Shown here piece after piece: positions 11,104 to 19,395 of a stretch of 33,580 nucleotides of DNA (position 1 is the stretch's first letter; every line of letters begins with the position of its first letter). The DNA comes from Chloroflexota bacterium (lineage in GTDB: Bacteria > Chloroflexota > Dehalococcoidia > SZUA-161). The notes below the pieces were generated by a model. It saw only the letters and a program-made list of their open reading frames with translations. It was not told the DNA's origin and did not search any database. Both the position numbers and the translations under genes were made by a program. Location of the stretch: NCBI GenBank assembly GCA_021787935.1, contig JAJYLC010000002.1, positions 1 to 33,580 on the forward strand, given 5' to 3'.

Positions 11104-11943
11104 TTATTGGCCCCTCCGTCCGTAGAAGCGCTCGGCTAAAATCATACTGATTGTCTCTATACTAAGGTCGCGGCTCTCCCTGGCGACAAGCGCAGCCCCA
11201 TAAGCCTCGAGGAGCTGGGGGTCAAAGCCGTTAAGGCTGGCCAGCCTCAACCCGAGCTTTTCCTCGAGGTCCCCCACCACGATGCTGTTCTTGGCGACTC
11301 CACCCACCAGGGCCACCTCCTCAATAACATCTATCCTTCTGACAAGTCCGACTATCCTGTCAGCGACAGCGGAAGCAACCCCAGCAAAGATGTCGAATTT
11401 ATCACAGCCTTCGTTTATCAGGGAGATTACCTCGCTCTCGGCAAACACGACACACTGACTGGCTATGGGAAGAGGGTTCTTTGAGCTGAGCGAAGCCTGA
11501 ATCAGCTTATCGAGCGGCATCTCCAGAGCATTGGCTATTACTTCGATAAACATCCCCAGCCCGGCAACGCATATATCGGTAACGGCAGCCTCTCCTACTA
11601 CCCCCTGCGTGTCAATACTAAAAGCCTCGGTGCACTGGCCGCCGATGTCGATTATGGTTCGTACCCGGGGATTGAACTGCCTCACAGCCCGGCTCAGACA
11701 TACTGTCTCAGGTACGACCCCTTCCGAATAAGGTACAGCCTTACCTCCGATTCCGGTAGACAGGCAGCGGTCTATCTTTTTGCCCGAGAGCCCTGCCTTA
11801 GCCAGGGCATTTGCCATAGCGTCAACTGCTGCCTGAGGGGTGGGGCTTTTGTAGGGTATTATGTCGAAGGCGAGGCTGCCATTGTCAGTGACAATGGCAG
11901 CCTTCGCCGCAGAAACCCCTAAATCACACCCGGCGTATATCAA
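11104..11943 (-). CDS. BadF/BadG/HgdC-family ATPase, divergent partner subunit
   Basis: A 279-aa paralogue of the adjacent activator. It keeps the fold and both candidate cluster cysteines at the same positions (C125 in TDICVAGLG, C164 in SQCVVFAES) and the N-terminal loop GCDLGVSAAKAAIV. It has lost consensus residues in the nucleotide loops: GGQCTEAFS in place of GGQDxKA, and AGLGMF in place of AGTGRF. The pair may therefore be an unequal heterodimer, as with BcrA/BcrD of benzoyl-CoA reductase, with this subunit a weaker or inactive ATPase. It is fourth in the five-gene minus-strand operon, 37 bases after the lipocalin-like gene. Confidence 0.88.
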   Translation of the reverse strand: MIYAGCDLGVSAAKAAIVTDNGSLAFDIIPYKSPTPQAAVDAMANALAKAGLSGKKIDRCLSTGIGGKAVPYSEGVVPETVCLSRAVRQFNPRVRTIIDIGGQCTEAFSIDTQGVVGEAAVTDICVAGLGMFIEVIANALEMPLDKLIQASLSSKNPLPIASQCVVFAESEVISLINEGCDKFDIFAGVASAVADRIVGLVRRIDVIEEVALVGGVAKNSIVVGDLEEKLGLRLASLNGFDPQLLEAYGAALVARESRDLSIETISMILAERFYGRRGQ

Positions 11944-15422: not shown

Positions 15423-15584
15423 TCAGCGAGGGTCCAACTTCAGCAGAAGATCGAACAGGATAACTAACAAAGCCATCGGCCCGTGCGGGAGCTGATATCT
15501 GGCTATCTTCTGTTGTTCCTCTCTCTCAACCTTGTTTGTTCGGTACGTGACTTTTGCTTCGCTATAGAGTTCTTTCGTCGTCAT
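15423..15584 (-). CDS. Mini membrane protein (shortened paralogue B)
   Basis: A 53-aa protein: MTTKELYSEAKVTYRTNKVEREEQQ, then one hydrophobic helix (PMALLVILFDLLLKL) and a stop. It resembles the first half of paralogue A, encoded 42 bases downstream, but lacks the second helix. GGGAGGA lies five bases before the ATG at 15584, which is better supported than the track start at 15611. It may be a truncated duplicate or a functional single-helix partner. Confidence 0.55.
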   Translation of the reverse strand: MTTKELYSEAKVTYRTNKVEREEQQKIARYQLPHGPMALLVILFDLLLKLDPR

Positions 15585-15665
15585 TGTCGTCCTCCCACCA
15601 CACCTTTTCATTACCTTTCTGCCTTGGATTGTAATGAGACCTGAAGGCGAGTGTTATCAAGCAGG

Positions 15666-15682
15666 TTACATAAATAATGTAA
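15666..15682. promoter_or_regulatory. Perfect palindrome TTACAT-N5-ATGTAA, candidate operator
   Basis: A 17-base dyad with 6-base perfect arms, ~80 bases upstream of the mini-protein pair. It overlaps a possible minus-strand -35 (TTTACA) followed 18 bases on by TGATAA. Position and symmetry suit a dimeric repressor site. The regulator is not identified. Confidence 0.4.
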
Positions 15683-15754
15683 AGTTGATTACAATTGGGA
15701 AGCGGTTTTTTTGTAGCAAGGAAGTCGAAGGGCTTGATTTAGCTTCGTGGAGAC

Positions 15755-15805
15755 AGGTGCACTCACCAAAATCCCTTTCTGGAGGGGTGACAAAGGGGTG
15801 CACCT
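15755..15805. repeat. Inverted repeat AGGTGCAC...GTGCACCT
   Basis: Exact 8-base arms separated by 35 bases, in the 326-base gap between the YCII-like gene and the mini-protein pair. No gene was found in this gap. It could be a small palindromic element or an RNA structure at the 3' side of neither gene. Confidence 0.45.
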
Positions 15806-15910
15806 TTGTAGAGCGGCCCCAAATCCACTCGCCCTTGACGGAGAGAGTTAGAGTGGAGCCGTTAACAACAGGCTCGCTGTTGCTTTGTTATCCTCGGTTT
15901 TATGCTATAC

Positions 15911-16228
15911 CTACTCCATAGGCGCCAAAGGATAAACTGCCACCTGCATGCCTTCCGCTATATCCGGGTGGCTTTTGGCCATTGCTATCGCGGCATCGAG
16001 GCTGCCGGCCTGCAAAATAGTGTATCCGGCAACGGGTTTAGCGCCGGTGCTTTTTACGCCACTCTTGGTGACAAGTCTACCCGGTTGAGTCGGCGCGCCC
16101 ATGTCCACGACAGCCTTGCCGAGGGCTGCGAACCATTTCGACCAGACAGCCATTGCCTTCTCAACCACCTTAGGGTCGGGGTTGGTGTCCATCTGACCAC
16201 CGTAGTACACAAGTAAATATTTTGCCAT
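15911..16228 (-). CDS. YCII-related domain protein
   Basis: A 105-aa protein of the YCII/DGPF type, a ferredoxin-like fold. Seen: MAKYLLVYYGG at the start (first strand), a central helix (VVEKAMAVWSKWFAALGKAVVD), and the typical second half GYTILQAGSLDAAIAMAKSHPDI....VAVYPL. The track start at 16336 adds 36 residues with no family match. AGGAGG six bases before ATG 16228 supports the shorter form. Family members are small dimeric proteins of generally unknown function, often fused to or near sigma factors, but none is visible here. Confidence 0.85.
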   Translation of the reverse strand: MAKYLLVYYGGQMDTNPDPKVVEKAMAVWSKWFAALGKAVVDMGAPTQPGRLVTKSGVKSTGAKPVAGYTILQAGSLDAAIAMAKSHPDIAEGMQVAVYPLAPME

Positions 16229-16643
16229 CTCATCCTCCTTCCAAGTAGGTGTAGAACCTTCACACCGATTCAAAGGCCTGACACTTTGTAACGCCAATAT
16301 AAAAAATATTTTACGTAGCCAAAATAAAGAAGTCATAAAATTGAGGAAGGAAAGGTTAATTAGTTATAACATCTTGTCGAAGTGCAAATCCGCCCTCTTT
16401 TTGTAGGTGATTGCGTTTACGCAGTTCGAATCATTATTCGCGAGGCTGCGGGTACCCTCAGTCCGGACAACCACCGGCGAAACGAGCAACGCAATTAGAT
16501 GACCATTGCCTATTTTTAGTGGGGCAAGTGAAGTAAAAGGTAATCCTCCTATCTGCCACACGAATGTTCCGTTTTCTCACCGATTTTTATTAACTTTTTG
16601 ACAAAATTAGCTTCAATAGGGGCGAAAGTTAAGTAAATTGAAA
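16229..16643. other. Intergenic stretch with no convincing gene
   Basis: AT-rich in its left part. The 65-aa minus-strand frame at 16364-16561 has no ribosome site or recognisable family. Probably holds the promoter for the YCII-like gene, but no clear -35/-10 pair was found. Confidence 0.4.
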
Positions 16644-16672
16644 TTGACCAGCCCCAGAGTTGTATTTATACT
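16644..16672 (+). promoter_or_regulatory. sigma70-type promoter upstream of a candidate small RNA
   Basis: TTGACC, 17-base spacer, TATACT: both boxes differ from consensus by one base or so and the spacing is optimal. The predicted start is near 16679. Confidence 0.6.
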
Positions 16673-16678
16673 GGCAAA

Positions 16679-16800
16679 TGTGCTAACAGATTCTTACAGG
16701 AGCATTGCCTTGTGGAGCATTGTGTTACAGGTTTGGGGTTGTTTCAAGACAGCTAGACGCCTCCAGTAAGCCGACCTTGCAGGTCGGCTTCTTCATTTTT
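16679..16800 (+). ncRNA. Candidate small RNA or attenuated leader
   Basis: Between the promoter at 16644-16672 and the hairpin terminator at 16768-16800 lies ~120 bases without a credible protein. It contains a repeated segment (GGAGCATTG twice, at about 16700 and 16715) and two TTACAGG copies. It could be a free small RNA, or a leader whose terminator controls read-through into the exported-protein gene at 16914. No known Rfam class was recognised. Confidence 0.4.
16768..16800 (+). terminator. Rho-independent terminator
   Basis: AAGCCGACCT and AGGTCGGCTT form a perfect 10-bp stem with a TGC loop, followed by CTTCATTTTT. It lies upstream, not downstream, of the nearest plus-strand gene, so it must end a short transcript or act as an attenuator. 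Confidence 0.75.
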
Positions 16801-16913
16801 GAGCGTGCTATCCGAAAGTACTCTATCTTAAGAAGCTTACTATGTCTTGCATTTTGCCCTAGGTCGAGGGGCCGAGGTAGCGAACCTTCGCAAAGAAAGG
16901 AGGTGAGAAAAGA

Positions 16914-17525
16914 ATGAAGAAGCTGATTATGGTTGCGGTTATTGCGGCACTGGCTGCAAGCGCAGTCATTGGCGTAGCTTACGCTGGCAACAATCTCAAT
17001 GGCAACGGAGCCCCAAGCGGTCCTCACTACAACCTTAATCTCATCGGGGTACCCAAAGACAAGACCGCTGACTTGACTGAAAGCAATGGGCATGTCATCT
17101 TTGTGAGCCTTAACGGCAACACCAAGATATTGCTTTACCCGGGCAACTTCACGGTATTGGATGCGAACGGCACTGACGGCACTGCCAGCTTCCAATTACC
17201 TAACCCTGACCCGACCAATAGCGGTTACACTTTGTACTCCGTCTATGCCCGCTTTCTAGGCAAACCGGGTGGCTGGGGCAACATAACCTCAGGGTTTACA
17301 GATGGGAATACCACGTGGTTCTCAACAAATAGCTACGTCGAGGTCCGCAGCACTGGTAAGAGTACTTTCACCAATGTGAGCAAGGATCTGCTGTACGTCT
17401 ACGTAAACGGCACAAGATACCCGCTGTTCACTAACAACCTGTACCAGTACTTCTGGAACTACGATAACAACGGGTGCAAGCTGGTGCAACTTCGCTTCTA
17501 CCAGGTATCCACCAACGTGAACTAG
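16914..17525 (+). CDS. Exported hypothetical protein
   Basis: A 203-aa protein with a clear Sec signal peptide: MKK, a hydrophobic core LIMVAVIAALAASAVIGVA, and a likely cleavage after AYA before GNNLNGNG. The mature part is rich in Asn, Gly, Thr and Tyr and looks beta-stranded (HYNLNLIGVPKDK, HVIFVSLNGNTKILLYPGNFTV, YLYVYVNGTRYPLF-type strands). No lipobox or anchoring helix is present, so it is probably released or periplasmic. AAAGGAGGTGAG provides a strong ribosome site. It is preceded by the candidate small RNA/terminator and followed by a perfect hairpin. Family and function not recognised. Confidence 0.8.
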   Translation: MKKLIMVAVIAALAASAVIGVAYAGNNLNGNGAPSGPHYNLNLIGVPKDKTADLTESNGHVIFVSLNGNTKILLYPGNFTVLDANGTDGTASFQLPNPDPTNSGYTLYSVYARFLGKPGGWGNITSGFTDGNTTWFSTNSYVEVRSTGKSTFTNVSKDLLYVYVNGTRYPLFTNNLYQYFWNYDNNGCKLVQLRFYQVSTNVN

Positions 17526-17543
17526 CAGCTATGCCACGTCGAG

Positions 17544-17579
17544 GAGAGAGGGAATCCCTTCCCAGGGATTCCCTCTCTC
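17544..17579. terminator. Perfect 16-bp hairpin after the exported-protein gene
   Basis: GAGAGAGGGAATCCCT and AGGGATTCCCTCTCTC pair exactly around a TCCC loop, 18 bases after the stop codon. It would form a very stable RNA stem. Only a weak T-rich tail follows (ATTTT some bases later), so it may protect the 3' end as well as terminate. Confidence 0.6.
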
Positions 17580-17763
17580 GCTAATTAAGATTTTACAAAG
17601 TAGAGTAAAACAGGATTCAGTCCATACTCCGCGAGCCCTTCGAAAGATAAGGAGCATAATTCCCTTTTTTCTAAACCTGTCCCTAACCGCCGCTTATCTG
17701 CACCTCGCAATAAAAAATCGGGAGGTCTTGATAGGTCCGGTAATGCGATATTGTCTGGAAATA

Positions 17764-18003
17764 CTATTGTCTAGAGCCACTATAGTATAATAATATTTGT
17801 GCGAAATGGAGAGTTGGTGTTTTAGTCATGGTAGTGTTGTAGCTAACGGACGGGATTTGTGGATAGTCTGACTTGCAATAAGACCTCACAATCCCCATTC
17901 TAGGATGGGCTTCCTGCTCTTCCCTACCCTGCTCTAAAATAAAATCTATGGGGGATATTGTTCGCTCCGGGAGAACGCCCGGTTGGGTAACATCGTTCCC
18001 CAT
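17764..18003 (-). CDS. Doubtful small ORF in an otherwise empty intergenic stretch
   Basis: A 79-aa frame with a fair ribosome site (GGGAG seven bases before ATG) but no recognised family, membrane segment or motif. It lies in the 475-base gap before the flippase-like gene. The region also has an AT-rich TATAATAAT at 17786 and a direct repeat TATTGTCT (17750 and 17766). Most likely non-coding, but listed because nothing else explains this stretch. Confidence 0.22.
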   Translation of the reverse strand: MGNDVTQPGVLPERTISPIDFILEQGREEQEAHPRMGIVRSYCKSDYPQIPSVSYNTTMTKTPTLHFAQILLYYSGSRQ

Positions 18004-19287: not shown

Positions 19288-19366
19288 GGGCGAGGAAACC
19301 TCGCCCCTACATTTGGTAATGAGCTTTCGACTAATAAGCGTAGGGGCGACTCAGTGAGTCGCCCCT
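19288..19366. repeat. Pair of palindromes in a convergent intergenic region
   Basis: GGGCGAGG-AAA-CCTCGCCC (19288-19306) and AGGGGCGACTCA-GTGAGTCGCCCCT (19342-19366) lie 35 bases apart, each flanked by CCCCTAC or GTAGGGG. The region (19087-19395) has no gene. It separates two converging genes and could act as a bidirectional terminator as well as being a repetitive palindromic element. Confidence 0.7.
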
Positions 19367-19395
19367 ATAAATAACAATCACAAACACTGTTTCAA

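Follow-up and report, generated by a model that had tools for sequence, protein, structure and literature searches.

The question raised by the intergenic region at 16229–16913 is what a promoter-like site and an intrinsic terminator are doing there with only about 120 bases of apparently non-coding DNA between them. The original prediction offered two answers, a small RNA or an attenuator for the exported protein encoded just downstream. The window, that is, the whole 33,580-nt stretch analysed, belongs to contig C146 of a 2.7-Mb draft genome. The genes on both sides of the intergenic region are divergent. To the left is a YCII-like gene on the minus strand (16228–15911, start at 16228). To the right is the exported-protein gene on the plus strand (16914–17525), encoding 203 aa with a signal peptide; it begins with ATG at 16914 and has the Shine–Dalgarno (SD) sequence AAAGGAGGTGA. 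On the plus strand, no gene or ORF lies upstream of the promoter-like site and the terminator. Background rates were taken from a 368-kb sample of the genome, collected as stretches, of which the non-coding part used as the promoter background amounts to 65 kb.

The sigma-70-type promoter-like site TTGACC-17-TATACT is present on the plus strand at 16644–16672 as had been claimed, with TTGACC at 16644–16649, a 17-nt spacer and TATACT at 16667–16672, and it matches the consensus at 10 of 12 positions. It is the top sigma-70 match across 15500–18000, and a sigma-70 consensus scan from 16800 to the exported-protein ATG found no good promoter. Going by the consensus match, the predicted RNA start is at about 16679–16680. 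Since the 65 kb of non-coding sample contains 73 sites scoring at least 10/12, the match is near the background rate and is weak evidence alone. By our own arithmetic, about 15% of terminators are expected to have such a promoter-like site 40–300 nt upstream.

The terminator, in contrast to a chance hairpin, is real. It is a perfect 10-bp stem with a 3-nt loop, AAGCCGACCT-TGC-AGGTCGGCTT, on the plus strand at 16768–16790, continued by the tail CTTCATTTTT to 16797, and it stands about 116 nt upstream of the exported-protein ATG. The predicted hairpin energy is -15.7 kcal/mol. The stem and the T-run are thus as first described, except that the T-tail is interrupted. The hairpin is significant because only 0.0035 perfect stems of at least 10 bp are expected per simulated copy of the intergenic region; the 10-bp stems that arose in 60 simulated sequences of window size all lacked such a T-tail. 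Stems of at least 8 bp with a comparable tail number only 14 in the 368-kb sample, and nine of these follow a same-strand ORF. Promoter–terminator cassettes without a large ORF occur twice in the 368 kb. The segment 16644–16797 is one of the two, and the only one without a same-strand ORF ahead of it. A second strong T-tailed terminator with no large same-strand ORF before it is found at 2770–2992 of locus L066 (G000:C91); the terminator itself, at 2966–2992, comes after a short ORF, about 50 codons long, that resembles a membrane protein. The window also has long perfect stems lacking T-tails at 19341–19367 and 11873–11903, and a perfect 16-bp stem without a T-run at 17544–17579, directly after the exported-protein gene.

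The statement that no credible protein lies between promoter and terminator stands up. The sole frame on the plus strand is a doubtful 29-codon one (16680–16769), starting at GTG without an SD sequence. One could suppose that it is a tiny leaderless protein gene, running from GTG 16680 to TAA 16769 and ended by its own terminator. Its GTG coincides with the predicted RNA start, its TAA runs into the first pairs of the terminator stem, and the L066 terminator, also without a large ORF ahead, does follow a short ORF. However, the open frame as a whole spans 16638–16769, and one of 29-codon length has about a 1 in 4 chance per frame. The best family match, to DUF5652, has an E value of 0.044 and is below the cut-off for that family, and there is no homologous DNA in the class. 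We consider a gene here very improbable. The internal duplications that had been pointed out are there, GGAGCATTG at 16699 and 16714 and TTACAGG at 16694 and 16725 (together 16694–16731, plus strand), but they are near chance and form no structure. By our own arithmetic, the number expected per 150 nt is about 0.04 for the 9-base duplication and about 0.7 for a 7-base one, and the 89 nt ahead of the stem show no more folding stability than shuffled sequences do (z +0.80).

By sequence match, a promoter and terminator of its own with no ORF between them is the layout of a small-RNA gene, and its rarity in the 368-kb sample adds to the case for one. The product would be a free-standing RNA, about 120 nt long, that either has its targets elsewhere or acts on the neighboring mRNA in trans by way of its U-rich 3′ end, which is predicted to be able to pair with the neighboring start codon (CUUCAUUUUU against AAGAAUGAAG). 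Against this, the pairing strand is mostly locked inside the terminator stem, and the RNA has no internal structure besides the terminator. Rfam gives no match in the region, either at the gathering threshold or relaxed to an E value of 5, and nothing at the gathering threshold in the homologous loci. The element has no copy or other DNA homolog in its own genome, the genus or 393 genomes of the class; the weak matches in the class are short, 21 to 32 bases, and the best two sit in unrelated sequence. We therefore discarded both a conserved small RNA and a known riboswitch or Rfam leader as candidates, and a free-standing small RNA seems improbable to us. Phages, plasmids and viral contigs also gave no match, which speaks against a phage or plasmid origin.

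The strongest reason to link the terminator with the gene at 16914 is a complementarity that the earlier reading missed and that is new here. The 3′ arm of the terminator together with the U-tract, GGTCGGCTTCTTCATTTTT at 16782–16800, is complementary to the start-codon region of the exported-protein gene, AAGAATGAAGAAGCTGATT at 16910–16928, both on the plus strand, over 19 continuous pairs if G-U pairs are included and over only 11 nt if Watson–Crick pairs alone count. The helix was spotted after the fact, in a list of inverted repeats. The link is nevertheless statistically unusual. Of 500 dinucleotide-shuffled leaders, none reached 17 pairs, and one of 3000 Markov-simulated leaders reached 19. 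Among 410 genes from samples of both same-genus genomes, the next-best helix of a gene with its own leader has 13 pairs; the 11-nt Watson–Crick length, taken by itself, is also reached by one other gene. Other leaders make at most 15 pairs with the 16910–16928 start region, and this leader makes at most 16 with the starts of other genes. When the readthrough RNA is folded, the strand complementary to the translation start dominates the predicted structure: the anti-start helix has a probability of 0.91–0.96, the terminator has largely disappeared, and the start region is 3% unpaired, versus 39% when the RNA begins at 16801. By this prediction, readthrough RNA keeps the start codon of the exported protein buried. 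Neither a similar leader nor the anti-start helix was seen in any homolog of the exported protein. A mobile-element origin for the inverted repeat at 16784–16926 was dropped, since its right arm simply encodes MKKLI, an ordinary beginning for a signal peptide.

Since the terminator is real, no ORF lies ahead of it and there is no other good promoter before the gene, a short transcript is favored, which may be the start of the mRNA of the gene at 16914. To this extent, the original proposal of a small RNA or attenuator survives, while an antiterminator, conservation, an Rfam match and structure in the duplications were not found. The features seen directly are the promoter-like site, the terminator, the lack of an antiterminator and the unusual 19-nt complementarity. 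Our preferred reading, to which we assign a probability of roughly 0.45, is that 16644–16913 comprises a promoter and a 5′ leader that limits the amount of exported protein in two ways, by ending transcription early and by masking the start codon. Transcription would start near 16679 and mostly stop at the intrinsic terminator at about 16797, leaving a short RNA of about 120 nt. In the RNA that reads through, the 3′ arm of the terminator and the U-tract would be freed and pair with the start codon and first codons. Protein output would then stay low except where some other factor opens the leader or the gene is served by an internal promoter. We infer promoter activity, readthrough, lowered translation by masking and regulation by a signal. 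That one strand does two mutually exclusive repressive jobs, stopping transcription and, in the transcripts that escape, covering the start codon, is a more specific proposition, and we hold it to be doubtful. One point against the leader reading is that both layers repress and the model has no known ON switch. A ribosome on the 29-codon frame, which ends inside the stem, is a speculative trigger, as that frame has no SD sequence and is maybe there by chance. We mention it because one account describes a terminator a few base pairs after a translated gene as repressed (PMC4824070), and a ribosome there might open the leader in the same way.

An alternative antiterminator fold had been asked for as a check on an attenuator, and we found none. 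In predicted folding, the leader comes to -37.5 kcal/mol with the terminator and -20.5 without it, so that the terminator fold is ahead of the best alternative by 17 kcal/mol, and that alternative leaves both terminator arms unpaired. Nothing upstream is predicted to compete strongly with the 5′ arm of the terminator, and no sensor structure was found in the leader. As far as these predicted folds go, the missing antiterminator weakens the attenuator claim for RNA-only switches only, because attenuators driven by a protein or a ribosome need no such fold.

It is possible instead, though we lean against it, that the arrangement is inert: the terminator would be left over from a neighbor that was lost or horizontally acquired, much like mobile attenuators, the promoter-like site would be one of the chance sites expected near about 15% of terminators, and the true promoter of the gene would have gone undetected within 16800–16890. 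Cases of mobile-element terminators being exapted have been documented (PMC2965389). The history of the locus gives this some weight. In the same-genus genome, the alignment to the window before the flippase-like gene begins only at about 17700; further upstream is the end of a different gene instead, and the exported protein is missing. The locus thus differs within the genus and is absent from the one same-genus genome compared. Neither Pfam nor NCBIfam has a match for the exported protein itself or a model for its family, and no solved structure is a convincing relative. The protein belongs to a family with the motif GNGAPSGxHYNLNIIGVPKDKTAD (loci L008–L020, L089–L092 and L094–L099) that is patchy, with members in Chloroflexi, Zixibacteria, Moranbacteria, Colwellbacteria and others, and in six of the 393 class genomes with its own genome counted. 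The patchy occurrence suggests horizontal transfer, fitting a locus that varies within the genus. The inert arrangement, however, leaves the 19-nt match to the start codon without explanation, no transposase or gene remnant was seen in 16500–16800, and there is no good promoter after 16800.

The same absence of the locus bears on the conservation search in relatives, which found no homolog. Because the whole locus is missing in the relatives, the lack of conservation does not refute the element. Close orthologs of the exported-protein gene were not found in the genomes compared. An intrinsic terminator does lie between promoter, by consensus match only, and gene on the same strand, as in an attenuator, but it does not recur upstream of orthologous genes. 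The leaders of the protein family share no terminator, and none of the homologs examined has a comparable promoter–terminator leader upstream. Several homologs do have a second SD-like stretch, AAAGGRGGT, 60–140 nt upstream of their starts (relative to the start codon, L010 -142, L012 -88, L089 -108, L090 -92, L015 -65 and L016 -62). From the sequences, either chance or a leader feature common to these homologs could account for it; in the window, AAAGGRGGT is merely the SD sequence of the exported-protein gene.

Two other elements are present in the same intergenic region. The first is a dispersed conserved promoter element of about 50 bp at 16308–16377, in the minus-strand promoter region of the YCII-like gene. 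On the gene strand, it reads ATGTGATAACTTTTTAACCTTTT-n8-CATTTTATGACT(-35)-17-TATCAT(-10). With a strict pattern, there are 25 copies in its own genome and 22 in the same-genus genome, from one to nine in six of seven other genomes of the family, and two in each of four other genomes of the class; a reversed control pattern gave none. Downstream of the copies are genes for rubrerythrin, MsrA, AhpC/TSA peroxiredoxin, DJ-1/PfpI, flavin reductase, cysteine desulfurase, disulfide oxidoreductase, glyoxalase-like and NfeD-like proteins, and an FtsH-like protease recognized from its translation only. Judged by pattern and gene content, this looks like an undescribed regulon for redox or envelope stress, with activator sites in the form of direct repeats, and it is probably a more rewarding lead than the terminator finding. 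The second is a palindrome-like element of about 85 bp at 16411–16494 (TTGCGTTTACGCAGTTCGAATC...CGAAACGAGCAACGCAA). An intergenic copy with 72% identity lies at an unrelated position of the same-genus genome (G001:C91:2222–2310, or L081 2222–2310) and folds well (z -3.57); the element is possibly a small mobile hairpin.

If the leader works as we propose, a secreted protein is held down at two levels, transcription and translation, by a single stretch of RNA. If in addition the strand does have its two jobs, it would be a compact two-step attenuator without an antiterminator, in a lineage whose RNA regulation has been little studied. If the leader reading fails, what is left, one terminator in an intergenic region that varies, is only of local interest.

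Premature terminators acting as attenuators are common, and their sequence conservation is no higher than that of ordinary terminators (PMC2965389). The 5′ terminators of Naville and Gautheret have a mean energy of -16.5 kcal/mol, similar to the -15.7 found here, and their premature terminators and mobile attenuators resemble this one in that a Rho-independent terminator occupies a gene's 5′ region; the cases they accepted are found repeatedly in different species (PMC2965389), whereas the terminator at 16768–16797 has been seen in one genome only. In Listeria, the terminated riboswitch SreA acts in trans as well (PMC8079631). Unlike SreA, the RNA here has no aptamer or Rfam riboswitch match and its candidate target is the adjacent gene; like SreA, it would be a short terminated leader RNA with the potential to pair near a translation start (PMC8079631). 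The nearest worked example is the Bacillus subtilis vmlR leader, which attenuates both transcription and translation: a terminator is followed in series by a hairpin that masks the start in transcripts escaping termination (PMC9226507), and 16644–16913 would share this two-layer layout. The vmlR leader contains, besides a proven uORF, both an antiterminator and an anti-antiterminator, and it sequesters the SD with a separate hairpin (PMC9226507), whereas 16644–16913, as read from its sequence, has no antiterminator, a doubtful uORF and a masking strand that would be the 3′ half of the terminator itself. Common to both is a short upstream frame ahead of the terminator (PMC9226507).
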